64,000 nt of DNA from Pseudomonadota bacterium (GTDB lineage: Bacteria; Pseudomonadota; Gammaproteobacteria; Steroidobacterales; Steroidobacteraceae). The notes under the pieces were generated by a model, which saw nothing but the letters and a program-made list of their open reading frames with translations, made no database searches and had not been told where the DNA came from. Where the stretch lies: positions 186,001 through 250,000 of the forward strand of contig JANYAE010000052.1 of NCBI GenBank assembly GCA_025355105.1, written 5' to 3'. How positions within the stretch are numbered: the first letter of the stretch is position 1; each line of letters opens with the position of its first letter. Below, in pieces: positions 30,150 to 49,581 of this stretch. Made by a program: the position numbers and the translations under genes.

Positions 30150-31316
<1,167 letters not shown>

Positions 31317-31632
31317 GCATGCCTCGGTGGGCCGTTGCCGGCTCTGACGGACGTCCGCGCAGGCGACGATCGGGTGCGCCCGGTGCGGCATTCTGCCATC
31401 GCGCTTCTACGCCTGCGTCGGCCGTCGCTCAATCCGGGGACGCCGTGGTGCGCGGCCGGTGCCTCATAACCCTTCCGCAGGCCGAGATAACCGCTTTAGA
31501 ATTGCGGCCTGCCGGCCCGTCCGCCAGACTTCGAAACCGGCTGCGAACGGACGGCGCCGCGGCCCGCCGGCCCGCAGCCGCGCCTGACACGGCCGAGCGA
31601 CTGACGTCATCAACAACACAAGAGCCTCCATC
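31317..31632 (+). other. Divergent intergenic region before the TonB receptor
   Basis: These 316 nt separate the AMACR-like gene from the TonB receptor. TAGAAT at 31497-31502 could be a -10 element, but the sequence 18 nt upstream (TTCCGC) is a poor -35. No open frame with a recognisable product and no riboswitch-like conserved box was seen. Confidence 0.4.
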
Positions 31633-34148: not shown

Positions 34149-35060
34149 ATGTCACCGGCACCGCTCACTCGACGCCTCGCGGCCGGCCTGATCGGCGGGC
34201 TGCTGTCGATGGTCCCGCTCGCCGGCATTGCGGCGGCCGCCGCCACGCAGCCGAAGCGGCCGGTCATCGTGTTCCTGTCCGACTTCGGCACGCTCGACGA
34301 CGCGGTGGCGATCTGCAAGGGCGTCATGATCGGCGTCGCGCCGGACGCCGAGATCATCGATCTCACGCACCAGGTGACGCCGTTCTCGATCGCGGAGGGG
34401 GCGCGGCTGCTCGCCCGGACGGCGCAGTACTATCCGCCCGGCACGGTGTTCGTGACGGTCATCGATCCGGGCGTCGGCACCAGCCGCAAGTCGGTGGTCG
34501 TCAAGTCCAGGCGCGGCCAGTACTTCGTGCTGCCGGACAACGGCCTCGTGACGCCGCTGCTCGACCGGGACGGCCTCGCCGGCGCCCGCGAGATCCGGAA
34601 TCCCGCCTGGCTGATCGGCGGCAAGCTGTCCTCGACCTTCCACGGCCGGGACGTATTCTCGCCGGTCGCCGCCCATCTCGCGCGCGGTGACGACTGGCGG
34701 CACGTCGGGCCCGCGGTGTCGACGCTGACGCGGCTCGAGGTGCCGAAGTCCGTGATCGACGAGCGCGGCATCAGTGGCAGCGTCGTGGCCCTGGATGGCC
34801 CGTACGGCAACCTCGTGACCAATATTCCCGGCGAAGAGCTGCGGCGGCTCGGCTACGCGCCCGGCGACGCGGTGCGCGTAACGGTGGGCGCCGAGGAGCT
34901 GAGCGTGCCCTACGCGGCGACCTTCGGTGACGTAGCGGTCGGCAAGGAACTGCTGTTCGTGGACTCCCGCGGCCTCGTCAGCCTCGCGGTCAACCAGGGA
35001 AACTTCGCCCGCAGCCACGGCGTCAACCCGCCGGTCAGGATGCTCATCGTCCGCAAGTGA
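34149..35060 (+). CDS. SAM hydroxide adenosyltransferase family protein (DUF62), with signal peptide
   Basis: The 303-residue product belongs to the fluorinase/duf62 family: VFLSDFGTLDDAVAICKGVM (Asp45), VFVTVIDPGVGTSRKSVVV with Asp106 and Arg113, and SSTFHGRDVFSPVAAHLA with His165. That Asp-Arg-His set is the water-activating triad of SAM hydroxide adenosyltransferases, which split SAM into adenosine and methionine. Unusually the N-terminus (LAAGLIGGLLSMVPLAGIAA, then AAA-TQ) is a signal peptide, so it should act in the periplasm where SAM is not expected. It probably shares a transcript with the TonB receptor 35 nt upstream. Confidence 0.85.
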   Translation: MSPAPLTRRLAAGLIGGLLSMVPLAGIAAAAATQPKRPVIVFLSDFGTLDDAVAICKGVMIGVAPDAEIIDLTHQVTPFSIAEGARLLARTAQYYPPGTVFVTVIDPGVGTSRKSVVVKSRRGQYFVLPDNGLVTPLLDRDGLAGAREIRNPAWLIGGKLSSTFHGRDVFSPVAAHLARGDDWRHVGPAVSTLTRLEVPKSVIDERGISGSVVALDGPYGNLVTNIPGEELRRLGYAPGDAVRVTVGAEELSVPYAATFGDVAVGKELLFVDSRGLVSLAVNQGNFARSHGVNPPVRMLIVRK

Positions 35061-35839: not shown

Positions 35840-37591
35840 TCAGAACTTGTAGTTCACGCCCGTCGAGACGCCGCTCGGCCGGCAGCCACCCCAGGTGGTA
35901 TTGCCTGCGCTCGAGTAGTCGATGTACGTCGCGTTCGTACCGTCGTGGCAGTCGGTCGTGAGCCCGCGACCACCCGCGCCGACGTCGTAGTGCGCGTTGC
36001 CGTGGTTGATCGTCGCGGCCCAGTCCAAGTACCAGTACACCTGCTTGTCGAACCGGTGTTTCCAGGCCAGCGTGTACATGTTGGCGCTGTTGTCGGTCTT
36101 CGACGGGTCATAGTTGTGCTGGCCACCCGGATCGCCCGGGGTCCGGCCGGCATGCGCCCAGCCGGCGCTGACGTTGTCGCTCGGCGTCACGTCCTGCGAA
36201 ACCGCCAGCCACGTCGCATTGTCGCGGGTGCGCTCGTTCTGAAATTCGAGCACGGCAGGCAGGTCGTGATGCAGGCGTTCCCAGGCCGCGCTGACCGTCA
36301 GGCCGAAGCCGAATTTGTACTGCGCGCCGATCTTGAACGCCGTCTCGTCACCGATGCTGGTCAGGTACGGCGGTGACGCGTTCGCCGCGAAGCTCGGCGC
36401 CACCGGCGAGATCGCCTGCCAGGTCGCGCAGTCGATCGGGCCCCAGGTCGCCGGGTCGGAGCCCGCGGCGCAGTTGCCGGCCGCCCCGAGCAGGTTGCCG
36501 TACTGCGGGTGGTTCGCGCCGATGCCGTCACTATTGCGGTTGACGTTCTTGTGGATCTCGTACGCCGCGGTCGCGTAGAAGCCGCCGGTCTCGATCTCGA
36601 CATCGGCGCTAAAGGCGTTGTCGAAGCCGCCATCGTCGCAGTTGAGCAGCAGGTTGCCGCTGCCCGGCATGTTGCCGCCGTTGCAGTCCGGCGAACCGCT
36701 TGACTGCACGACGTTGTTGTACGTGCGGTTCTGGCCGGGCGAGTACAGCACGTTGAAGCTCCACATGCCGCCGAATTTCGGCGACTCGTAGGCGAACGCG
36801 TGGTCGAGGCGCGTGCCGAACTCGACGCGGTTGTCGCCGCCCGAGTTGCCCATGACAACCGCGTAATCGCCGAGCATGCCGGAGAACGGGTTCAGGCGAT
36901 CGGTCGACTTCTTGTACGGCGAGTAGAACGTGCCGAATTTGACGCGGCCCCATTCCTTGCCCTTGAGGCCGATGAACGTGTCGCCCAGGCCGACGGCGCC
37001 GTTGACGACGTTCGACTGTTGGTACTGGGAGGTCTTGAGCCCCGGCGAAGCGCTGATCGCGAGTGCCGTTTCGACCTGGTAGACCAGGCTGACGTTGGAT
37101 GAGCCGATCTTGTGCTCGCCGCGGTAGCCGATCTGCGACTTGTTGGTCGACAGCGCCGGCATGTAGCCAACCCGGCCGACCGGGTTCGCGCCGCCGGCTT
37201 TCGGGTTCGTGTAGTCGAGCCCCGAGCCGTCCGGCAGCAGGTGGTACGCCACGTTGCCGGCCATGCCTTTGGTGGTGTCATCGAACGACACGTCGAGCGT
37301 GCCGTAGAAGCCCTTCATGAACTCGTCGAACTTGGGCTCCGCGGACGCCGGCTTGGCGGCAGGCGCAGCTGCGGTCTGCGCAGGAGCCTGCGCCGGCGGC
37401 TGGGCCGAACCCTTTTTGAGGGTCTGTACCTCCTTGGTGAGGTCTTCGACTCGCTGCATCAGGATCTTGACCTGATCGGCGAGCGCCTTGTCGTCGGCGA
37501 GCGCCGCGCCGGCGAATCCGACGCCGGCCAGGATCGTCGCCATCGCCGCCAGAGCCGCAAGCATTGGCTTGGCCTTGCTTCGGATGAGCAT
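35840..37591 (-). CDS. Outer-membrane porin with N-terminal coiled coil
   Basis: The 583-residue protein has a signal peptide (MLIRSKAKPMLAALAAMATI, cleavage after ALA), then a short coiled coil (LADQVKILMQRVEDLTKEVQ) and an Ala/Pro-rich linker. A Gram-negative porin barrel follows (KFDEFMKGFYGTLDVSFDDT; TFIGLKGKEWGRVKFGTFYS is the porin PEFGG-like region) and it ends with GVNYKF, a C-terminal Phe as needed for barrel insertion. AGGGGG precedes the ATG. It lies 114 nt downstream of frc on the same strand and may serve organic-acid uptake for that cluster. Confidence 0.85.
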   Translation of the reverse strand: MLIRSKAKPMLAALAAMATILAGVGFAGAALADDKALADQVKILMQRVEDLTKEVQTLKKGSAQPPAQAPAQTAAAPAAKPASAEPKFDEFMKGFYGTLDVSFDDTTKGMAGNVAYHLLPDGSGLDYTNPKAGGANPVGRVGYMPALSTNKSQIGYRGEHKIGSSNVSLVYQVETALAISASPGLKTSQYQQSNVVNGAVGLGDTFIGLKGKEWGRVKFGTFYSPYKKSTDRLNPFSGMLGDYAVVMGNSGGDNRVEFGTRLDHAFAYESPKFGGMWSFNVLYSPGQNRTYNNVVQSSGSPDCNGGNMPGSGNLLLNCDDGGFDNAFSADVEIETGGFYATAAYEIHKNVNRNSDGIGANHPQYGNLLGAAGNCAAGSDPATWGPIDCATWQAISPVAPSFAANASPPYLTSIGDETAFKIGAQYKFGFGLTVSAAWERLHHDLPAVLEFQNERTRDNATWLAVSQDVTPSDNVSAGWAHAGRTPGDPGGQHNYDPSKTDNSANMYTLAWKHRFDKQVYWYLDWAATINHGNAHYDVGAGGRGLTTDCHDGTNATYIDYSSAGNTTWGGCRPSGVSTGVNYKF

Positions 37592-37705
37592 CGTGATACC
37601 CCCTCGTGAATTAATTGGACTGAGCGTTCTCAGATCGTCCGCATCATCTCGTTCCAAAGATTCCCTGCCGTCGTGCCGGAAGCGCGCCGCGGGGCGCGCG
37701 CTTCC

Positions 37706-38953
37706 TCAGATGACTTTCTCGGCGCGCAGCGCGTCGATCTCGGCCGCCGCGAGCCCGAGTTCGCCGAGTACCTCGATTGTGTGTTCGCCGAGCAGCGGCG
37801 AGCGCGTGACGACCGTCGGGCTGTCCGACATCTTGATCGGATTGCCGACCGACAGGTACTTGCCGCGGGTCGGGTGGTCGACCTCGACGATCGTGCCGGT
37901 GTCGCGCAGCGACTGTTCCGACGCCAGCTCCTCCATCGACAGGATGGGGCCGCACGGAATGTCGTGTTCGTTGAGCTCGGCCATGGCCTCGAACTTGGTC
38001 TTGGTCATTGTCCACGACTCGACCGCCGCGAATACCTGCTTGAGGTGCGGCAGGCGCGCTTCCGGCGTCGCGTAGTCAGGGTCGGTGATCCACGACTCCT
38101 GGCCGATGACCTTGCAGATCTCCTTCCAGACCGGCGCCTGGGTGATGAAGTACAGGTACGCGTTCGGGTCGGTTTCCCAGCCCTTGCACTTGACGATCGA
38201 GCCCGGCTGTCCGCCGCCCGACGCGTTGCCGGCGCGCGGCACGGAGCTGCCGAACTTGCCGTTCGGGTACTGCGGAAATTCCTTCATGACTCCGGTGCGC
38301 GCGAGGCGCTGCTGGTCGCGGAGCTTGACGCGGCACAGGTTGAGGACGCCGTCCTGCATAGCGGCGAGCACTTTCTGGCCGCGGCCGGTCGTATTGCGCT
38401 GGTAGAGGGCCGCGACGATGCCGAGCGCGAGATGCAGGCCCGTGCCGCTATCGCCGATCTGTGCGCCGGTCACCATTGGCGGGCCGTCATCGAAGCCGGT
38501 CGTGGAGGCGGAGCCGCCGGCGCACTGCGCGACGTTCTCGTAGACTTTGCAGTCCTCGTACGGGCCGGGCCCGAAGCCCTTGACCGAGGCGACGATCATC
38601 CGCGGGTTCAGCTCCTGGATCCGCTCCCAGGTGAAGCCCATGCGATCGAGTGCGCCGGGCGCGAAGTTCTCGACCAGCACGTCGCAATGCTTGACCAGCC
38701 GCTCGAGCACCGCCTTGCCACGCGGCATCTTGGTGTCGAGCGTGATCGAGCGCTTGTTGTGATTGAGCATCGTGAAGTAGAGGCTGTCCACGCCGGGGAT
38801 GTCGCGCAGCTGTTCGCGCGTGACATCCCCGGCGCCGGCGCGCTCGACCTTGATGACGTCTGCGCCAAACCACGCCAGCAGCTGAGTGCACGTCGGTCCC
38901 GACTGCACGTGGGTGAAGTCGAGAATCCGGACGCCGTCGAGAGCCTTGCCCAT
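37706..38953 (-). CDS. frc: Formyl-CoA:oxalate CoA-transferase (YfdW type)
   Basis: The 415-residue protein is close in length and sequence style to E. coli YfdW. It has [20 protein letters not shown], Gln48 in TREQLRD where the Oxalobacter enzyme has Trp48, the catalytic Asp168 in [13 protein letters not shown], and the Gly loop [10 protein letters not shown] (YfdW has NAGGGGQPG as I recall it). The enzyme moves CoA from formyl-CoA to oxalate or another acid. It starts 17 nt after the ThDP enzyme gene, so both are cotranscribed. The acceptor is not fixed by the sequence; oxalate is the family default. Confidence 0.9.
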
Positions 38954-38970: not shown

Positions 38971-40725
38971 CTACTTGTACATTGTCTGATTCTTGGTACC
39001 CGGCGCGTACTCACGCGGGTCCACCCAGATGTTGATCACCGCGCAGCGCCGCAGCCGGTGCACAGATTCGCGCGCCCGCCGCAGCGCCGGGGCGATTTGC
39101 GCCGGGTCGCGCACTTCCTCGCCATAGCCGCCGAGCATCTCGGCGAACTTGCCGAACGGCACGTCGCCGAGCAAGTTACCGACGGCGCCGCGCTCCTCGC
39201 CGTACTTGGCGAGCTGCCCGTAGCGGATCTGGTTCATCGCCGAATTGTTGCCGATTACCGCCACGTACGGCACGCCGAAGCGGTTGGCCGTCTCCATGTC
39301 GAACGCGGTCATGCCGAAGGAGCCGTCGCCGTAATAGCAGAGCACCTCCTTGTCCGGATTGGCGAGGCCGGCGGCGATCGCGAAGCCGGTGCCGACGCCG
39401 AGCGAGCCGAGCGCGCCGGGATCCATCCACTGACCTGGGCCGCGCGGCCGGACCGCCTGGGCGGAGATCGTGACGACGTCGCCGCCGTCGCCGATGTAGA
39501 TGGTGTTGTCGGCAAGGAACTCGTTCAATTCGTAGGCGACACGATACGGGTGGATCGGCGTGTTGTTCGACTTGAACAGTGGCATCAGCTTCTCGGTGGC
39601 CGCGTCCTCAGCGGCGGTAAGCTTCTTCATCCAGTCGCGGCGCGACTGGCGCTTGTCCGCCTTGAGGCGGCCGCTCGCCGCCTGCAGTACGGCGGCGAGG
39701 ATCGCGCCCGGGTCCCCGCAGAGGCCGAGCGAGATGTCGCGGTTCTTGCCTACGGTGCGGTAGTCTATGTCTATCTGCACCAGCGTCAGCTTCGAGCTGA
39801 TGCGCTTGCCGTAGCCCATGCGAAAGTCGAACGGCGTGCCGACGATCAGGATGACGTCGGCCTCGGCGAAGGCGTTGCTGCGCGTCCGGTCGAAGTGGTG
39901 CGGATCGCCCGGCGGCAGGAGGCCGCGGCTCGCGCCATTGAAGTAGCCCGGGACGTCGAGGCCGCGCAGCAGCGCGATCGCCTCGTTGTGGCCGCGCGCC
40001 GTCCAGACCTGCTGGCCGTAGAGCACCGCGGGACGCTCGGAGTTCACGAGTATGTCGGCGAGCTTTTCGATGTCGCGCGGATCGCCGATCGACTTCGTCG
40101 AGGCGCGGTAGTGGCCGGGCTTCGGGATCACGGCCTTGGTGAGGTCTACTTCGCGGTCGAGCACGTCGCGCGGGATCTCGAGATAGCAGGGGCCGGGAGC
40201 TCCGTTGAATGCCTCGCGCACGGCCATCGAGACCATGTCGGCGACGCGCTCGGTGCTCGGCACAGTGGCCGCAAACTTGGTGATCGGCGTCATCATGTCG
40301 ACGTGGGGGAGGTCCTGCAGCGAGCCCATCTTGTGCTGGCTCAGCGCGCCCTGGCCGCCGATGTGCAGCACCGGGCTCTCGGAGCGGAACGCGGTCGCGA
40401 TGCCGGTGACGGCGTTCGTGCAGCCCGGGCCGGCGGTCGTCACGACGCAGCCAAGCTTGCCGGTCTGGCGCGCATAGCCGTCGGCCGCGTGGGCAGCGAC
40501 CTGTTCGTGGCGCACGTCGATGATGCGGATGCCTTCGTCGATGCAACCGTCGTAGATGTCGATGATGTGGCCGCCGCACAGCGTGAAGATCGTGTCGACG
40601 CCCTCGTTCTTCAGCGCCTTGGCGACCAAGTGGCCACCGGAGATGACGTTGGCGTCGCGGGTCTTCTGCTTCAGCGTGTCTTCGGCCGTCGTGGTGCTGC
40701 GGACATCTGCCGCCTTGGTGGACAT
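38971..40725 (-). CDS. ThDP-dependent 2-hydroxyacyl-CoA lyase-like enzyme
   Basis: A 584-residue three-domain ThDP enzyme. Glu74 ([17 protein letters not shown]) activates the cofactor; [19 protein letters not shown] (from 466) with NN at 493-494 is the ThDP/Mg motif. In oxalyl-CoA decarboxylases the loop after the first domain reads GDYEE, with catalytic Tyr-Glu. Here the same place reads [10 protein letters not shown] (134-143), like the FQE/LQD of acetolactate synthases and HACL1/HACL2-type lyases. The closing [14 protein letters not shown] is a C-terminal tail as in CoA-acting members. I therefore favour 2-hydroxyacyl-CoA lyase, making or using formyl-CoA, over oxalyl-CoA decarboxylase. 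It is flanked by frc and an OxlT-like gene. Confidence 0.75.
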
Positions 40726-40872: not shown

Positions 40873-42174
40873 TCAAGCGGCGGCCTTGGCCGTAATGGTC
40901 ACCGCCGGTGGCGCGCTTGCTGCGTACTTGGCCCGCAACGGCTTCAGCGCCAGCAGCGCGAGCGCCGCCGCCGTGAAGTTCGCGATTGCCGCGGCGACGA
41001 ACACGGCGTGCCAGCCGCCGGCGCTCGCTGCCCATACGCTCGCGAACGGCACGACGATGGCCGCGGTGCCCTTCGCGGTGTACAGCAGGCCGGTGTTTGC
41101 GGTCGCGAACTTGGTGCCGAAGGTGTCGGCGGCGGTGGCCGGGAAGAGGCTATATATTTCGCCCCACGCGAAGAACACGATGCCGCTCAACAGCACGAAC
41201 ATCACCGGGTCGGTCCCGAAGTTCGCCAGCGCAATGATGCCCGAGCCCTCGATGGCGAAGGCGAGGCCCATGGTGTTTTCCCGGCCGATGTGGTCGGAAA
41301 CCCAGCCGAAGAACGGCCGGCACAGGCCGTTCAGCACGCGGTCGATCGTCAACGCGAAGGTCAGCGCCGGCAGCGTCAGGCCGATGAGGCTGACCGGCAC
41401 CTCGGCAACCTTGAAGTCCTTGGCGATCGGCGCGAGCTGCGCGACCGCCATCAGGCCGCCGGCGGCCATCATCACGAACATCGCGTACATGAGCCAGAAC
41501 ACCGGCGTCTTGATCATCTCCGTCGGCGATACCTGGCGGCGGCCGGCACTAGGCGAGAACTTCGGCGCGGCGCCGAGCACCTCAGGCGGCGGCACGAGGA
41601 TCAGGAAGCCGAGCACGAAGACGACGAGACCCTGGACGATACCGAAGGTCAAAAACGTCTGTTGGTAACCCGCGGACTTGATCATGTTCGCGATCGGGAT
41701 GACGGTCAGCGCCGAACCGGCGCCGAAGCCCGCAGCGGTGAGGCCCGCGGCGAGACCGCGGCGGCCCGGGAACCAGCGCACCGCGTTGCCGATGCAGGTG
41801 CCGTACACGCCGCCCGCGCCGACGCCGCCGAGCGCCGCCGCGAAGTACAGCATCGGCAGCGTGTCAGCGATGGAATTCAACGCCCAGGCGATGCCACACA
41901 GAGCGCCGCCGATCACGATGATCCAGCGCGGACCGAAGCGGTCGACCAGATAGCCCTCGACCGGTACCAGCCAGGTCTCTAGGAGCACGAAGACGGTGAA
42001 GGCCACTTGGATGGACGCCTTGCCCCAGTGGAACTTGGCGTCGATGGGACCGACGAACAGCGTCCAGCCGTACTGCAAGTTGGCGATCATCACCATGCAG
42101 AGGATGCCGATGATCAGCTGCAGCCACGGGTTGCCGAATGCGGATTTCCCACGCTGCTCCGTTGTCGAAGTCAT
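40873..42174 (-). CDS. oxlT: Oxalate/formate antiporter-like MFS transporter
   Basis: A 433-residue MFS protein with 12 hydrophobic segments. NPWLQLIIGILCMVMIANLQ then YGWTLFVGPID fits the OxlT family start. The second half has LNGLCRPFFGWVSDHIGREN, and the eleventh segment NTGLLYTAKGTAAI keeps the lysine that in OxlT (Lys355) binds oxalate. It would exchange oxalate, formate or similar carboxylates. The ATG at 42174 is preferred to an open upstream frame; it lies about 200 nt downstream of a (G/C)ATAT-N5-ATATC site. Formally it could carry another mono- or dicarboxylate. Confidence 0.8.
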   Translation of the reverse strand: MTSTTEQRGKSAFGNPWLQLIIGILCMVMIANLQYGWTLFVGPIDAKFHWGKASIQVAFTVFVLLETWLVPVEGYLVDRFGPRWIIVIGGALCGIAWALNSIADTLPMLYFAAALGGVGAGGVYGTCIGNAVRWFPGRRGLAAGLTAAGFGAGSALTVIPIANMIKSAGYQQTFLTFGIVQGLVVFVLGFLILVPPPEVLGAAPKFSPSAGRRQVSPTEMIKTPVFWLMYAMFVMMAAGGLMAVAQLAPIAKDFKVAEVPVSLIGLTLPALTFALTIDRVLNGLCRPFFGWVSDHIGRENTMGLAFAIEGSGIIALANFGTDPVMFVLLSGIVFFAWGEIYSLFPATAADTFGTKFATANTGLLYTAKGTAAIVVPFASVWAASAGGWHAVFVAAAIANFTAAALALLALKPLRAKYAASAPPAVTITAKAAA

Positions 42175-42374
42175 AGATGCTCCCCCTCGTACTGTGGCGC
42201 CATCGACTCTGGCGGCCTGTGTGATCCGCGAACTGTGGCGCACGCTCCGCGCGTTCAGCTGCGGCCGGGGTCGAGAAGAAGCAGCCGGGACGATGCCCCG
42301 CCCGTGCGATTGCTCGCGTGCTGCCCCCTCGACACATTCCTAAATCAGGTTTCGTATTTCTCGAACGCTCTGGA

Positions 42375-43056: not shown

Positions 43057-43776
43057 ATGAGTGTCATCAGCAAGGTCCTGCGTCGCGCGGGGGCGCAGGC
43101 GCCGCTCCCGTTGGCGCCGCTAAACGCCGTCAGCCTTCGCGACCAGGCGTATGTGCTGCTCAAGGACGCGATTGCCGCGACCGATATCTACGGCCAGCGG
43201 CAGGACCTTCGACTCGACGAGCGCCAGCTGACCGAGGCGCTCGGCGTAAGCCGCACGCCGGTCCGCGAGGCCCTGCAGATTCTCGAACAGGAGGGGTTCC
43301 TGCGCACCGTGCCGCGTCGCGGGATCTTCATAGTCCGCAAGACCAAGCGGCAGATCATCGAGATGATCCAGATGTGGGCGGCACTCGAGAGCATGTCCGC
43401 CCGGCTCGCAACACTGCACGCACCGGACGCAGAGATCCAGAAGCTCCGCCATCTGTTCGACGAGTTCCTCAATTCGCCACCCGCGGCGCACATTGGCGAG
43501 TACTCCGACGCCAACATCGCGTTTCACCAGATGATCATCCGCTTGGGCGGCTCCCAGCTGATCGACGACGCGACGAAGAACCTGTTCATCCATGTGCGGG
43601 CCATCCGCAAGGCGGCGATCTCGCAGGATGATCGCGCCGCGCGCTCGATCATCGATCATCTGAGAATCATCGAGGCGCTCGAGCGGCGCGACACGGAAGC
43701 CGCGGAGCGGCTGACGCGCGAGCACACTCTCGACCTCGCGGCGCACGTCGAGCGCCACGGCGAACTGCTCGACTGA
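43057..43776 (+). CDS. GntR family transcriptional regulator (FCD type)
   Basis: The 239-residue protein has an N-terminal winged helix (LRDQAYVLLKDAIAATDIYG; ERQLTEALGVSRTPVREALQ with the recognition helix; FLRTVPRRGIFIV wing) and an all-helical FCD ligand domain with a metal-type His set (NIAFHQMIIRLGG, LRIIEALERRD). FCD GntR proteins bind small carboxylic acids and usually repress. A run of G before the ATG gives a strong ribosome site. It is the best candidate to bind the (G/C)ATAT-N5-ATATC sites found at 42376, 42640 and 49700. Confidence 0.88.
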   Translation: MSVISKVLRRAGAQAPLPLAPLNAVSLRDQAYVLLKDAIAATDIYGQRQDLRLDERQLTEALGVSRTPVREALQILEQEGFLRTVPRRGIFIVRKTKRQIIEMIQMWAALESMSARLATLHAPDAEIQKLRHLFDEFLNSPPAAHIGEYSDANIAFHQMIIRLGGSQLIDDATKNLFIHVRAIRKAAISQDDRAARSIIDHLRIIEALERRDTEAAERLTREHTLDLAAHVERHGELLD

Positions 43777-43801: not shown

Positions 43802-44821
43802 CTAGTCCTTCATCGTCGGCGACGCTGACCGAGGCCGCGCCCGTTGGCTCGTCTTCGGCCGCGCCAGCGACGCACCGCGCCCGGGCCGCGCAACGCCCTC
43901 GAAGTCGAAGTGCACGAGGCGTCCGATCAGCGCCGCGCCCTCGCGCATCAGGAACTCCTTGAACGCGAGTGCGACCGGCGGCAGGCGCTTTGAGCGGTGG
44001 TGCACGAGATACCAGTTCAGCATCGCCGGGAAGCCCTCGACGTCTAGGACCGTCAGCATGCGCGACTTCAGCTCGAGCCCGATGGTGTGCGCCGAGAGGA
44101 ACGCGATGCCCATGCCGGCGACCACCATTTGCTTGATCGTCTCGGTGCTGCGGATCTCCATCGTCGTGCTCAGCCGGGCGAAGCGACGGCCGAAGACCTC
44201 GCGCATCGAGTTCCAGGTGTCCGAGCCACGCTCGCGCTGAATGAAGTGTTCCCGGACCAGCGCCGCGCGCGGAATCCGTCGCGCGGCCGCGAGCGGGTGA
44301 TCCGGGGCGGCCACGATCACGTACGGGTGCGGCGCGAACGGCACCGCGACCGTGTCCGGGTCGGTCGGCGGCCGAACCATGACGGCGAGGTCGGTCAGGT
44401 TGTCGGCGATCTCGCGCAACAGTCCCTCACGGTTGTGGACCGTAAGGTTGAAGCTGACGCCGGGGTGCCGTCGGGCAAACTCGGCCAGCACGCGCGGAAA
44501 GAAGTAGTCGCCGGCGCTGATCACGGCGACATTGAGGCGGCCGCCGGTGACGCCTTTCAGCTGCGCGACCGCATCGTCGGCCTCGCGCAGCCGCTGCGCG
44601 ATCGCGCGCGCGCAGTGCCGCATTTCGTCGCCGGCCGGCGTGAGGTATGTGCGGCGTCCGAGCCGCTCGATCAGCGGCAGGCCGACTTCGGCCGTCAGCT
44701 CCTTGACCTGGATCGAGACCGCCGGCTGCGACAGGTGCAATTCCTCGGCGGCACGCGAGAAGTTCATGTGGCGCGCGACCGCCTCGAAGACCCTGAGCTG
44801 CCGCAGCGTGATGTGGGCCAT
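43802..44821 (-). CDS. LysR family transcriptional regulator (CbbR-like)
   Basis: A 339-residue LysR protein: HITLRQLRVFEAVARHMNFS then RAAEELHLSQPAVSIQVKEL is the helix-turn-helix, and VTGGRLNVAVISAGDYFFPR begins the CbbR-like ligand domain. The C-terminal ~40 residues are Arg/Pro-rich and extend beyond the usual ~300-residue fold. CbbR-type regulators respond to sugar phosphates or NADPH and control C1/CO2 genes. None of the RuBisCO genes is here, so a role in glyoxylate/C1 genes next door (45.4-48.6 kb) is more plausible. It is convergent with gntR. Confidence 0.85.
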   Translation of the reverse strand: MAHITLRQLRVFEAVARHMNFSRAAEELHLSQPAVSIQVKELTAEVGLPLIERLGRRTYLTPAGDEMRHCARAIAQRLREADDAVAQLKGVTGGRLNVAVISAGDYFFPRVLAEFARRHPGVSFNLTVHNREGLLREIADNLTDLAVMVRPPTDPDTVAVPFAPHPYVIVAAPDHPLAAARRIPRAALVREHFIQRERGSDTWNSMREVFGRRFARLSTTMEIRSTETIKQMVVAGMGIAFLSAHTIGLELKSRMLTVLDVEGFPAMLNWYLVHHRSKRLPPVALAFKEFLMREGAALIGRLVHFDFEGVARPGRGASLARPKTSQRARPRSASPTMKD

Positions 44822-45255: not shown

Positions 45256-45362
45256 GCTCGCGGTGCGGGACGACCTGCGGTAGCACCTGACGTCCGCGCT
45301 GCACTCGGACGTCCATAATTCACAACGATAGCGGTGCGCGCGGGCCCTCGAGGGGAGTGTCG

Positions 45363-46385
45363 ATGAAGATTGCGGTGGTCGGGGCAGGCGCGATCGGCGC
45401 CTATGTCGGCGTCCGGCTCGCGCTCGCGGGCGAACAGGTCACCTTCATCGCGCGTGGCGCCAACCTCGAGGCGCTGCGCGCCCGCGGCGCGCGGCTCGTG
45501 CTGCCGGACGGCAGCGAGCAGGTCGCCGCCAACGTGGCCGCGACCAGCGACTACGCCGCCGCCGGTCCTCAGGATCTCGTCATCCTCGCGGTCAAGGCCC
45601 ACCAGCTTGGCGCCGTCGCGCGCGAGGTACCGAAGCTCGTCGGTCCGGACACGATCGTGGTGCCGATGCAAAACGGCATTCCCTACTGGTATTTCCACCG
45701 CCACGGCGGCGCCTTCGCGGGCCGGCAAGTTCAGGCGGTCGATCCGGGCGGACATATCAGCGTGCACATTCCGGCCGAGCGCGTCATCGGATGCGTCGTG
45801 TATCCGGCCACCGAGCTGATCGCGCCCGGCGTCGTCAAGCTGATCGAGGGTGACCGCTTTCCGGTCGGCGAGCCGGACGGCGCGCGCAGCGCGCGCGTCA
45901 CCAGGGTGGCGGAGTGCTTCACGCGCGCCGGCTTCAAGGCGCCGGTGCTCGACGAGATCCGCGCCGAGATCTGGCTGAAACTGTGGGGCAACCTGACCTT
46001 CAATCCGATCAGCGCGCTGACCCGCGCGACGCTCGTCGACCTGTGCGAGGACGGCGGCACCCGCCAGCTCGCGGTCGAGATGATGACCGAGGCGCAGGAC
46101 GTGGCGCGAGCCTACGGCATCACGATGCGCGTGTCGCTCGCGAAGCGAATCGCCGGCGCCGCTAAGGTCGGCAAGCACAAGACCTCGATGCTGCAGGACG
46201 TCGAGGCAGGCCGCACGCTGGAGATTGACGCGCTGCTCGGCGCGGTGGTCGAGCTGGCGCGGGTCGCGAGCGTCGCGACACCGCACCTCGACGCCGTCTA
46301 CGCTCTCACGCGTCTGCTCGCGGCGGTCACCGAGGCCGAGCGCCAGGGCACGGCCGTGGCGCTTCACCCGCTCGGCACGGCATGA
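45363..46385 (+). CDS. panE: 2-dehydropantoate 2-reductase family protein
   Basis: The 340-residue protein has the ketopantoate-reductase layout: KIAVVGAGAIGAYVGVRLAL Rossmann motif, DLVILAVKAHQLGAVAREVP, VVPMQNGIPYW with the NG pair, and the C-terminal helical domain (EIWLKLWGNLTFNPISALTR with the catalytic Lys, then HKTSMLQDVEAGRTLEIDAL). AGGGGAG sits before the ATG at 45363; a GTG at 45357 would overlap it. In this context it may reduce another 2-oxo acid rather than ketopantoate. Confidence 0.8.
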   Translation: MKIAVVGAGAIGAYVGVRLALAGEQVTFIARGANLEALRARGARLVLPDGSEQVAANVAATSDYAAAGPQDLVILAVKAHQLGAVAREVPKLVGPDTIVVPMQNGIPYWYFHRHGGAFAGRQVQAVDPGGHISVHIPAERVIGCVVYPATELIAPGVVKLIEGDRFPVGEPDGARSARVTRVAECFTRAGFKAPVLDEIRAEIWLKLWGNLTFNPISALTRATLVDLCEDGGTRQLAVEMMTEAQDVARAYGITMRVSLAKRIAGAAKVGKHKTSMLQDVEAGRTLEIDALLGAVVELARVASVATPHLDAVYALTRLLAAVTEAERQGTAVALHPLGTA

Positions 46386-46466: not shown

Positions 46467-47657
46467 ATGGCTGGCAGAAACTTTCTCTTCGTTCCCGGGC
46501 CGTCCAATGTCCCGGACCGCATCCAGCGGGCGATGATGGTCGCGATGGAGGACCATCGCTCGGCGCGCTTCCCGGAACTCTCGCTCGCCTGCCTGAAGGG
46601 CCTGCAGCGGCTGTTCCGCACCGAGAACGGCACGCCGATGATCTTTCCGTCGTCCGGCACGGGTTGCTGGGAGGCGGCGCTCAGCAACTGCCTTAGCCCG
46701 GGCGACCGGATGCTCGCAGCGCGCTTCGGCCAGTTCAGTCACCTCTGGATCGACATGTGCCAGCGGCTCGGCTTCGAGGTCGACGTGCTCGACGAGGAAT
46801 GGGGCGCCGGAGCCTCTCCCGAGCGCTACCGCGCCGCGCTCGCCGCCGACAGGGGGCACCGCATCAAGGCCGTGCTCGTCTGTCAGAACGAGACGGCGAC
46901 CGGCGTGACCAGCGACGTCGCGGCGATCCGTGCGGCGATCGACGAGACGCGCCATCCGGCGCTGCTCTTCGTCGATTCGGTGAGCGCACTCGCCAGCATC
47001 GACTTCCGAATGGACGAGTGGGGTGTCGACGTCTGCGTCAGCGGCTCGCAGAAGGGGCTGATGCTGCCGGCCGGTCTCGGCATCACCTGCGTCAGCGTGC
47101 GCGCGCTCGAGGCCGCCAAGAGCGCGACCAGCCGGCGCTGCTATTTCGACTACGCCGACATGGCGCAGGCGGCACACAGCGGCTACTTCCCGTACACGCC
47201 GTCGATCCCGCTGCTGCACGGCCTGCGCGAGTCGCTCGCGATGCTGTTCGAGGAAGGCCTCGAGCAGGTGTACGCGCGGCACGCGTTCCTTGCCGGCGGC
47301 GTGCGCGCCGCGGTCCGCGAGGGCTGGCAGCTCGAGCTCTGCGCGCGCGAACCGAAGTGGTACTCGGACACAGTCTCCGCGGTGATGCTGCCCGCCGGCG
47401 TCGACGGCGCCAAGATCATCGGCCACGCGTTCCGTCGCTACAACCTCGCACTCGGAGCCGGGCTGTCGAAAGTCGCGGGGCGCTTGTTCCGGATCGGCCA
47501 CCTCGGCGACCTCAACGAGCTGATGCTAATGGGCGCGATTGCCGGTGCCGAGATGGCAATGCTCGATGCAGGCGTCAAGGTCGTGCCGGGCAGCGGCGTG
47601 GCCGCGGCGAGCGCCTACTGGCGCGGCCAGCCGGCGCCGAGGGGCCTGCTGGCATGA
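46467..47657 (+). CDS. sgaA: Serine--glyoxylate aminotransferase
   Basis: A 396-residue class V aminotransferase. NFLFVPGPSNVPDRIQRAMM, FPSSGTGCWEAALSNCLSPG and QNETATGVTSD are family segments, and Lys196 in CVSGSQKGLMLPAG binds pyridoxal phosphate. It converts serine plus glyoxylate to hydroxypyruvate plus glycine, the key step of the serine cycle and of glyoxylate assimilation. Its stop overlaps the hprA start (ATGA), so both enzymes of the route are made together. Confidence 0.85.
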   Translation: MAGRNFLFVPGPSNVPDRIQRAMMVAMEDHRSARFPELSLACLKGLQRLFRTENGTPMIFPSSGTGCWEAALSNCLSPGDRMLAARFGQFSHLWIDMCQRLGFEVDVLDEEWGAGASPERYRAALAADRGHRIKAVLVCQNETATGVTSDVAAIRAAIDETRHPALLFVDSVSALASIDFRMDEWGVDVCVSGSQKGLMLPAGLGITCVSVRALEAAKSATSRRCYFDYADMAQAAHSGYFPYTPSIPLLHGLRESLAMLFEEGLEQVYARHAFLAGGVRAAVREGWQLELCAREPKWYSDTVSAVMLPAGVDGAKIIGHAFRRYNLALGAGLSKVAGRLFRIGHLGDLNELMLMGAIAGAEMAMLDAGVKVVPGSGVAAASAYWRGQPAPRGLLA

Positions 47658-48604
47658 GCGAGCGAATCGTATTCCTCGATCGGGCGTCGCTGCCGGTGCG
47701 TTTCACGGCGCCGCGCTGCACCGGCGAGTACGTGGAGTACGTCGAGACCGGCGCCGACGAGCTCGTCGCGCGCCTCGCGGGCGCATCGGTCGCGATCACC
47801 AATAAGGTGCCGCTCAGGGCTGCGGTGCTCGCGCAACTGCCGGCGCTCAAGCTGATCGCGGTGGCCGCTACCGGCTACGATTGCGTCGACGTCGCCGCGT
47901 GCCGCGAGCGCGGAATCGTCGTCGTGAACATCCGCCAGTACGCCGTGCACACCGTTCCGGAGCACGTGTTCGCGCTGCTGCTGGCGCTCAGGCGCAATCT
48001 GGTCGGCTACCGTCAGGCAGTCGCCGCCGGCGAATGGCAGAAGGCCCGGCAGTTCTGCGTGTTCGACGGCGAGATCCGCGACCTGCACGGCTCGCTGCTC
48101 GGTATCGTCGGTCACGGCTCGATCGGCAGCGCCGTCGCGACGATCGGTGCGGCCTTCGGCATGCAGGTGCGCTACTCGACGGATCCCGAGCATCCGACGG
48201 TCGACGAGCAGCACCGGCCGCTTGCCGAGCTGGTCGCGACGGCCGATGTCCTGACGCTGCATTGTCCGCTGACGGCGCAGACCCGCGGCCTGATCGGTGA
48301 GCGGGAGCTGCGCGCGATGAAGCGCGGCGCGATCCTGATCAACACGGCGCGCGGTGGCCTCGTCGACGAGCCGGCGCTGCGGCGCGCGCTGACCGAGGGC
48401 TGGATCGGCGGCGCGGGTTTCGACGTGCTGACGGTCGAGCCGCCGCGCGACGGTCACCCGCTGCTTGATCTCAACCTGCCGAACTTCATCGTCACGCCGC
48501 ACGTCGCTTGGGCCTCCGTCGAGGCGATGGAAGGCCTAGCGGACCAACTGACCGGCAACATCGACGCCTGGGCGGATGGTTCGCCGCGCAACGTCGTCAG
48601 CTGA
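47654..48604 (+). CDS. hprA: Hydroxypyruvate reductase (D-2-hydroxyacid dehydrogenase)
   Basis: The 316-residue protein has a D-2-hydroxyacid dehydrogenase fold: VAATGYDCVDVAACRERGIV, the NAD site GIVGHGSIGSAVATIG, Arg in INTARGGLVDEPAL, Glu in LTVEPPRDGHPLL, and the catalytic His in TPHVAWASVEAM. It reduces hydroxypyruvate (or glyoxylate) to glycerate, directly after the aminotransferase step of sgaA. The 4-nt overlap with sgaA supports the assignment. Confidence 0.85.
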   Translation: MSERIVFLDRASLPVRFTAPRCTGEYVEYVETGADELVARLAGASVAITNKVPLRAAVLAQLPALKLIAVAATGYDCVDVAACRERGIVVVNIRQYAVHTVPEHVFALLLALRRNLVGYRQAVAAGEWQKARQFCVFDGEIRDLHGSLLGIVGHGSIGSAVATIGAAFGMQVRYSTDPEHPTVDEQHRPLAELVATADVLTLHCPLTAQTRGLIGERELRAMKRGAILINTARGGLVDEPALRRALTEGWIGGAGFDVLTVEPPRDGHPLLDLNLPNFIVTPHVAWASVEAMEGLADQLTGNIDAWADGSPRNVVS

Positions 48605-48648: not shown

Positions 48649-49581
48649 TCAGGTGCCGAGGGTCGTTCCGACCGTCACGCCTGCCTCGGCGCAGAACTGT
48701 GCGGCGGCCATCTTCTTGCCGTCCTCGTGCTTGAGCTTGAGCACTTCGATCTGGCCGCCCTGGCCGGTGATGACGATGCTCTCGGCGCCGATTGCGGTGA
48801 CCGCGCCGATCTTGCCCTTCACCTGACCGAAGGTCCGCACGAGGTGCCGGCGCGCATCGAAGATCTGCAACCTCTTGCCGCCGATCGTGGTCCAGGCGCC
48901 GGGAGCCGGATTGCAGCCGCGGATCAGGTTGTAGGTGTGCTCGATAAGCGTGTGCCAGTTGATGCGCGCTTCGCCTGACTGGCACCAGCCCTCGTAGCTT
49001 GCCTGCGACTCGTCCTGCACGGTCGCGGTCGCGCGGCCGGAAGCCACGAGGTCTGCAGCCTCCTGCAGCGCGGCGACGCCCATCGGGAACAGCCGGTCGA
49101 AGTACACGCTGCCGAGCGTGTCGTCGGGGCCGATCGGGGTCTCCTTCTGCAGGATGACCGGACCCTCGTCGAGCCCGTCGGTCGGCCTGAAGATCGTCAG
49201 GCCCGTGCGCGTGTCGCCGCGGATGATCGGCCAGTTGATGGAACTCGGCCCGCGGTAGCGCGGTAGCAGCGACGGGTGATACTGGATCATGCCGTGGCGC
49301 GGGATCGCGACGAAATCCTGCGGCACGAACTGCAGCACGTACGCCATCACGCCGACGTCGACGTTGAGGCCACGCAGCGCGGCCTGGGCTTCCGGCGTCT
49401 TAAGCGACGGCAGCTGTACGAGCGTGATCTTGCGTTCCTCGGCCGCGACGCGCAAAGCATCCGGCCGCGCACCCGGCTTCTCGGGCGCGCAGAAGACGCC
49501 GGCGACCGTGTCGCCGCGCGCGATGAAGGCTTCAAGGGCCGCCTTGCCGAAGTCCTGCTGTCCGATGATGGCAATGCGCAT
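48649..49581 (-). CDS. Stand-alone 10-formyl-THF hydrolase / formyltransferase-domain protein
   Basis: This 310-residue protein resembles the N-terminal hydrolase domain of eukaryotic ALDH1L1 more than methionyl-tRNA formyltransferase. It has MRIAIIGQQDFGKAALEAFI, then the catalytic region GMIQYHPSLLPRYRGPSSIN with His102, and TDGLDEGPV with Asp138, offset by four from the human His106/Asp142 as I recall them. The C-terminal oligonucleotide-binding-like domain follows (GCNPAPGAWTTIGG). It would release formate from 10-formyl-THF or move formyl groups. An operator-like repeat lies about 120 nt upstream. Confidence 0.75.
   Translation of the reverse strand: MRIAIIGQQDFGKAALEAFIARGDTVAGVFCAPEKPGARPDALRVAAEERKITLVQLPSLKTPEAQAALRGLNVDVGVMAYVLQFVPQDFVAIPRHGMIQYHPSLLPRYRGPSSINWPIIRGDTRTGLTIFRPTDGLDEGPVILQKETPIGPDDTLGSVYFDRLFPMGVAALQEAADLVASGRATATVQDESQASYEGWCQSGEARINWHTLIEHTYNLIRGCNPAPGAWTTIGGKRLQIFDARRHLVRTFGQVKGKIGAVTAIGAESIVITGQGGQIEVLKLKHEDGKKMAAAQFCAEAGVTVGTTLGT

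Follow-up and report, generated by a model that had tools for sequence, protein, structure and literature searches.

The closest described systems to the locus analysed here are the oxalyl-CoA decarboxylases (OXC; model TIGR03254, O. formigenes Oxc, E. coli YfdU), the actinobacterial 2-hydroxyacyl-CoA lyases (HACL) represented by AcHACL, and the frc-oxc-apbA2 locus of C. necator. Tyr120-Glu121, Tyr483 and Ser553 are given as key residues of OXC (PMC10192776), and its decarboxylation step is described as requiring no HACL-like proton transfer (PMC8760513, excerpt). The original prediction for this locus had called the Tyr-Glu pair essential. The pair is important but not strictly essential, as alanine mutants of the Tyr and Glu in one OXC retain about 10% of the activity (PMC7190790, excerpt). 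Two surveys of oxalate degraders recognise OXC by IPR017660 or by annotation together with key residues like Tyr120-Glu121 (parts of PMC7190790 and PMC10192776). AcHACL has no ADP site, and the ApbHACL counterparts of the ADP-binding arginines of OXC are given in the same source (PMC11271303, excerpt). The HACL families are mechanistically non-uniform, so that a missing Glu493 is no veto against lyase activity, and human HACL2 also carries Ile at the Glu493 position (PMC13327070, excerpt). C. necator no longer grew on oxalate when frc-oxc had been deleted, and grew more slowly without the PanE-like apbA2 (PMC7486775, excerpt). These deletions support the pathway; the oxc of C. necator H16 could be of either family.

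The window, that is the whole stretch of 64,000 nucleotides that was analysed, contains a gene for a ThDP-dependent enzyme of 584 aa (Table 1). The open reading frame is real and intact, the reading as a decayed gene was rejected, and three TPP-enzyme domains were found in the product with Pfam. As had been predicted, the gene is situated between a YfdW-type frc with Gln48 and Asp168 and a gene for an OxlT-like transporter. The window Frc shares 61% identity with E. coli Frc/YfdW and contains Q17, Q48, and the catalytic D168, and both neighbours score well above the cut-offs of their models. Two further assignments of the original prediction had to be changed. The aminotransferase named SgaA is here called BhcA/SgaA-like; the closest model is that of BhcA, an aspartate-glyoxylate aminotransferase, and its score is below the cut-off; the supposed formyl-THF hydrolase instead matched Fmt-type formyltransferase models, likewise below cut-off. 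Some alphaproteobacterial loci, whether with OXC or with the family of the ThDP enzyme, likewise have an Fmt-like gene following Frc.

Table 1. Features of the window, with the evidence for each assignment
Feature	Position	Strand	Evidence and remarks
Frc, formyl-CoA:oxalate CoA-transferase	37706..38953	-	TIGR03253, 710 bits (cut-off 504); 17 bp downstream of the ThDP gene
ThDP-dependent enzyme, proposed non-orthologous oxalyl-CoA decarboxylase	38971..40725	-	Models, Pfam, tree, alignment, swaps with OXC
Residues 495-504; Ile500 at the place of the AcHACL acid/base Glu493	39214..39243	-	Alignment
Active-site loop, residues 134-143; Leu136-Gln137 replace the OXC Tyr-Glu	40297..40326	-	Alignment
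Glu74, conserved ThDP-activating glutamate (RHEQ)	40504..40506	-	Alignment
OxlT-type oxalate/formate antiporter	40873..42243	-	TIGR04259, 614 bits (cut-off 335); upstream of the ThDP gene, same strand
GntR/FCD regulator, divergent	43057..43776	+	Relative in 60/80 related loci
LysR regulator	43802..44821	-	Relative in 42/80 related loci
PanE/ApbA-type reductase; candidate oxalyl-CoA reductase (ApbA2/PanE2 type)	45357..46385	+	Relative in 35/80 related loci; PMC7486775 (excerpt)
Class V aminotransferase, BhcA/SgaA-like (glyoxylate to glycine)	46467..47657	+	BhcA, 563 bits (below cut-off 650)
D-2-hydroxyacid dehydrogenase (HprA/glyoxylate reductase type)	47654..48604	+	Profile matches
Fmt-like formyltransferase	48649..49581	-	Fmt-type models, 155.5 bits (below cut-off 201.5); relative in 12/80 related loci

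The window resembles the C. necator frc-oxc-apbA2 locus (PMC7486775, excerpt) in that Frc, a decarboxylase, and a nearby PanE/ApbA reductase occur together; among 21 stretches of Cupriavidus with OXC, 13 also contained a PanE relative. The window differs from the Cupriavidus OXC loci compared here in that a true OXC is encoded there and a member of another family in the window.

Further genes on the far side of Frc were noted. A 605-aa protein (35840-37657), encoded just downstream of Frc and with relatives in 7 of the 80 related loci, had no Pfam or NCBIfam match; our guess is that it is probably a porin. A protein of the SAM hydrolase/fluorinase fold with an N-terminal leader (34149-35060) scored 169 bits against the (R)-SAM hydrolase model, below the cut-off of 350. 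A second CaiB-type CoA transferase (30150-31391), about 6.3 kb from Frc, is nearest to the CoA:oxalate CoA-transferase YfdE and far below its cut-off (164 versus 522 bits).

In the original prediction the ThDP enzyme was taken for a lyase (or synthase) acting on 2-hydroxyacyl-CoA, with formyl-CoA as product or substrate and with Frc recycling the CoA, possibly in the service of 2-hydroxyacid oxidation or C1/C2 assimilation. Placement inside the OXC clade, which would have refuted it, did not occur. Against the OXC model TIGR03254 the window enzyme scored 228 bits (cut-off 739.4), and its identity to the E. coli OXC amounts to 25%. In a tree of 47 rows the enzyme and its relatives, below called the ThDP family (27 rows), formed a clade of their own with a support of 98/97, and seven OXCs formed a separate clade (100/100). 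The lyase reading gains from the nearest solved structure, which is AcHACL by both phmmer and profile searches. However, the enzyme reached only 365 of the required 600 bits with the actinobacterial HACL model NF058623, and the three HACL-type references, which scored 742 (L138), 959 (L139), and 544 bits (L136, itself below the cut-off), grouped apart with 100/100. The best NCBIfam score was 448 bits for PRK05858, "acetolactate synthase", which is again below the cut-off (587). Several outgroup rows of the tree are long-branched, so that its deeper order is unsure, and E. coli Gcl was left out. A further ThDP clade (Bosea, Variibacter; L134 3995-5644, and L105) is sister to OXC in this tree (98/96). 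Its gene is adjoined by a CaiB-type CoA transferase, perhaps a third pair of a ThDP enzyme and a CoA transferase.

The window enzyme shares with OXC the ThDP fold, the conserved ThDP glutamate, the Frc partner, the OxlT and GntR neighbours and, in part of the loci, the same operon slot. The active sites are different. The motif region comprises residues 123-143 by alignment. At the place of the loop, the aligned OXC rows (that of E. coli and two others, from genomes of the Cupriavidus/Paraburkholderia type) contain GDYEE, which is absent from the window enzyme, as had been predicted; LQ stands there for YE, and L136 and Q137 are invariant in all 88 members of the ThDP family, as is the motif MNQIR. 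Counterparts of the OXC residues Tyr483 and Ser553 were not found in the alignment. OXC positions 158 and 280, which we take to be the ADP-binding arginines of the R domain, are aligned with Ala and Pro in the window enzyme, so that both arginines of the ADP site are absent. In this respect the enzyme is like AcHACL, with which it also shares the GGHI and LQD motifs and Gln137 as the counterpart of the active-site Gln128 (88/88 members). In contrast to AcHACL, it has no counterpart of Glu493, where all 88 members carry Ile500, its gene neighbourhood is a different one, and its chain stops where the HACL rows L138 and L139 continue, so that the long C-terminal lid is absent. Since human HACL2 likewise has Ile at this position, Ile500 alone is a weak mark and cannot separate a decarboxylase from a lyase.

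Related loci were taken as the best 80 among the matches listed, with 78-91% identity to the window ThDP enzyme. Of these loci, 77 have a Frc on the same strand, downstream of the ThDP gene, and the remaining three end at contig edges. Measured after the final sense codon, the two genes lie 5-206 bp apart in 68 of 76 pairs; the called open reading frames overlap by 34-40 bp in three pairs, and the Frc frame was uncalled in five. The commonest neighbours besides Frc were, in this order, GntR, OxlT (48 loci), LysR, and PanE, which speaks against a lyase. The pair extends to a Streptomyces plasmid, where it has 66% identity and is accompanied by an OFA antiporter; the next matches of that collection are at about 35%. 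Thirty-seven recurring neighbour clusters were obtained, ten of which were scanned for families (C11, C12, C16, C18, C22, and rarer ones left out). No mutase or AMP-binding ligase was among these ten, unlike at the HACL-type loci L136, L138, and L139. On the other side, an aldehyde dehydrogenase (cluster C10; 21 of 84 compared loci) could be a gene usable by a lyase, and an ADP-forming acyl-CoA ligase, also in favour of a lyase, recurs in 42 of the 84. Succinyl-CoA-ligase-like genes recur in 33 and 27 loci. Genes of these two ligase types surround the pair at, for example, L130, L131, and L129, and might serve to prime the formation of oxalyl-CoA, or else produce a different CoA ester.

Eight genomes of only 1.0-1.5 Mb from the Rhizobiales order also carry the ThDP gene (67-70% identity) with Frc, and in the three of them that were examined (G105, G156, G319; loci L140, L141, L142) an Fmt-like gene adjoins Frc. 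It would be odd for oxalate degradation to be kept in bacteria with reduced genomes.

The distribution of the two enzymes was then compared, OXC being counted at E <= 1e-150. In the window's genome (91% complete) no OXC above the cut-off was found, and the only Frc above the cut-off is that of the window. The Cupriavidus genus (that of a C. pauculus genome) comprised 60 genomes, 14 with the ThDP family, 42 with OXC (40 above the cut-off, two fragments) and one with both. Frc was present in 55 of these, divided into 41 with OXC only, 13 with the ThDP family only, one with both and none with neither; the five genomes lacking Frc contained neither enzyme. In the Rhizobiales order (that of Phyllobacterium; 249 genomes, the best five or six candidates per genome scored) the ThDP family was found in 22 genomes, OXC in 48 (46 above the cut-off) and both in none. 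Here 72 genomes were Frc-positive, 47 of them with OXC only (one a fragment below the cut-off), 22 with the ThDP family only, none with both and three with neither; the 177 Frc-negative genomes had neither enzyme, save for one OXC fragment at a contig edge. Taken together, 127 of 309 genomes carry Frc, 88 with OXC only, 35 with the ThDP family only, one with both and three with neither (Fisher p about 1e-26 in the Frc-positive set, kinship being ignored). The Frc-positive genomes counted on OXC fragments below the cut-off are G090, G093, and G294, and draft genomes could miss an OXC. Two of the genomes with neither enzyme (G173, G329) had no match to the ThDP family or OXC within about 7-8 kb of Frc, and in the third (G245) the contig starts inside Frc.

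Among 49 genomes with the ThDP family, hand-chosen from the 80 related loci (50 picked, L034 left out) and mostly isolates and long contigs, six also had an OXC above the cut-off, namely five Paraburkholderia and one of the Cupriavidus group, so that the roles of the two enzymes may not be identical everywhere. These six genomes contain at least two Frc genes each; two Frc genes are also present in genomes with the ThDP family only (Collimonas G041 and G042, and G101).

A history of exchange between the two enzymes is indicated by Frc and by the operon slot. In a tree built from 64 Frc proteins (38 of them from pairs with the ThDP family, 26 from pairs with OXC) the upstream partner changes nine times (bootstrap range 8-10; mean of shuffled assignments about 20), and seven of the changes are forced by well-supported branches. 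The rows of this tree were hand-chosen, and the OXC loci L177, L183, and L188 were dropped, Frc not being within 800 bp. In alphaproteobacterial-type loci the order GntR-X-Frc was found with the ThDP family as X in 14 of 26 loci and with OXC as X in 12 of 21. The 26 loci were hand-picked (L074 is titled only Proteobacteria), with at least 1.6 kb upstream in 21 of them. The OXC loci compared came from 21 of the 48 OXC-positive Rhizobiales-order genomes and from 41 of the 42 OXC-positive Cupriavidus-group genomes, G018 with both enzymes being left out.

In 40 of these 41 OXC-bearing Cupriavidus loci, GntR stands no more than some 224-961 bp away from a Frc that is 84-89% identical to the Frc paired with the ThDP family; the remaining locus (L147) is cut off before GntR. 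Remnants of a ThDP gene were identified just before the retained Frc in six of the 41, with differing deletion ends; one of them is weak (L156, E 0.002). In L147 residues 1-51 are fused in frame to residues 568-584. A control with shuffled queries gave 0 of 205. A broader remnant count was rejected, as several query frames had been over-extended N-terminally and matched the 5' leader; with the proper start the count is six. The remnants in the emptied slot show that the ThDP gene was formerly there and was lost in these six Cupriavidus where OXC is present, and the short gap in the other 35, which contains no remnant, fits the same history of loss. The genome pattern, the partner swaps and the remnants, all shown here, indicate that bacteria mostly carry either OXC or the ThDP-family enzyme and that the two were swapped repeatedly.

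Published growth phenotypes were matched to the genomes. B. kururiensis LMG19447, B. phenoliruptrix LMG22037, B. tuberum LMG21444, and B. graminis LMG18924 grew on calcium oxalate (Kost, PMC3886118, excerpt). Genomes with the same strain numbers were available for P. kururiensis (G004, locus L025), P. phenoliruptrix (G029, L055), and P. tuberum (G025, L050). The fourth grower was represented by P. graminis C4D1M (G023, L048), presumably the same type strain as LMG 18924. Each of the four genomes contains the ThDP-family enzyme and exactly one Frc above the cut-off. Two routes were searched for, and neither an OXC above the cut-off nor a match to the model of the bicupin oxalate decarboxylase (OxdC) was found in them.

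In B. phytofirmans PsJN, interruption of oxc led to loss of oxalotrophy, and frc is not single copy (PMC3886118, excerpt). We considered that this oxc might belong to the ThDP family and dropped the idea, because the primers given in that excerpt encode OXC-type ends (LNDIKT..., and ...AAMKK followed by the stop); on the sequence of these primers the interrupted gene would be a true OXC. PsJN may carry both enzymes, in which case the ThDP-family enzyme would be insufficient there under those conditions. The two frc copies were not kept as proof of both enzymes, as genomes with the ThDP family only (G041, G042, G101) have two as well.

Near-exclusivity with OXC, partner swaps, remnants and growth on oxalate with no OXC detected together argue for plain oxalate degradation by a non-orthologous decarboxylase. 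As judged from comparative genomics, the ThDP enzyme is most likely a second, separately derived oxalyl-CoA decarboxylase that replaces OXC and is by descent not an OXC. We infer the reaction, the residue roles and a reductase branch as follows. OxlT would import oxalate and export formate, and Frc would transfer CoA from formyl-CoA to oxalate, yielding oxalyl-CoA and formate. The ThDP ylide of the window enzyme would then attack the oxalyl carbonyl, CO2 would leave, and the carbanion would take up a proton; the formyl-CoA so released would go back to Frc. Catalysis would proceed without the Tyr-Glu loop, Tyr483/Ser553 and the ADP-site arginines of OXC; the invariant LQ...MNQIRYGQ pocket and the short C-terminal tail would be used instead. 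The nearby PanE-type reductase probably diverts some of the oxalyl-CoA into assimilation by reducing it to glyoxylate. It is quite improbable that the carbanion also reacts in the cell with glyoxylate or another aldehyde, so that carboligation of formyl-CoA (or oxalyl-CoA) would form a natural branch of oxalate assimilation in these bacteria.

Several points speak against a decarboxylase: the PsJN knock-out, if that strain also carries the ThDP family, the six genomes with both enzymes, the three Frc-positive Rhizobiales-order genomes with neither, the lyase as nearest solved structure, and the recurring aldehyde dehydrogenase. The last of these, together with the genomes that have two Frc genes and only the ThDP family, slightly lowered our confidence. 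The lyase reading nevertheless is quite unlikely. Its positive evidence (AcHACL as nearest structure, Q137 and the LQD motif, the aldehyde dehydrogenase and ligase neighbours, and the permissible loss of Glu493) meets a failed HACL model, a separate clade, the differing residues, and the oxalate-type context, on which grounds HACL identity was rejected for the window enzyme. The near-exclusive occurrence with OXC and the partner swaps also speak against a lyase, and the alpha-oxidation or C1-assimilation module of the original prediction found no support.

A bifunctional enzyme was considered as well, which would decarboxylate oxalyl-CoA and whose carbanion could also be trapped by an aldehyde (glyoxylate or formaldehyde, for instance), so that a natural formyl-CoA carboligation branch would result. 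Carboligations of this type have been carried out in vitro with HACL-type enzymes and with OXC (PMC11271303, PMC13327070, excerpts), and glyoxylate-handling genes are close by in the window. Nothing in the data requires carboligation, however, and OXC occupies the same slot in sister operons; we regard this alternative as very improbable. That an enzyme of the acetolactate synthase type, as its best NCBIfam score would have it, stands beside frc by chance is hardly credible and was rejected, as that score is below the cut-off and the adjacency was not lost in the genomes examined, up to Streptomyces.

For the decarboxylase itself, a full-text literature search, covering the accessible parts of the papers, nowhere found the ThDP family named as an oxalyl-CoA decarboxylase, and in both RefSeq records examined its members are annotated only as "thiamine pyrophosphate-binding protein". 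Single genome papers may have hand-annotated a member as OXC, for example C. pratensis NKI69446.1, which could be of either family. The ThDP family lies outside the OXC model. If its members are oxalyl-CoA decarboxylases, many soil- and plant-associated Paraburkholderia, Caballeronia, Cupriavidus, and Rhizobiales, as well as some Streptomyces, would be oxalotrophs that have gone uncounted or have been explained wrongly. One superfamily would then have arrived at two solutions for the oxalyl-CoA step, with differing residues in the active site, and the ThDP family would offer a scaffold without the ADP site of OXC for formyl-CoA chemistry.
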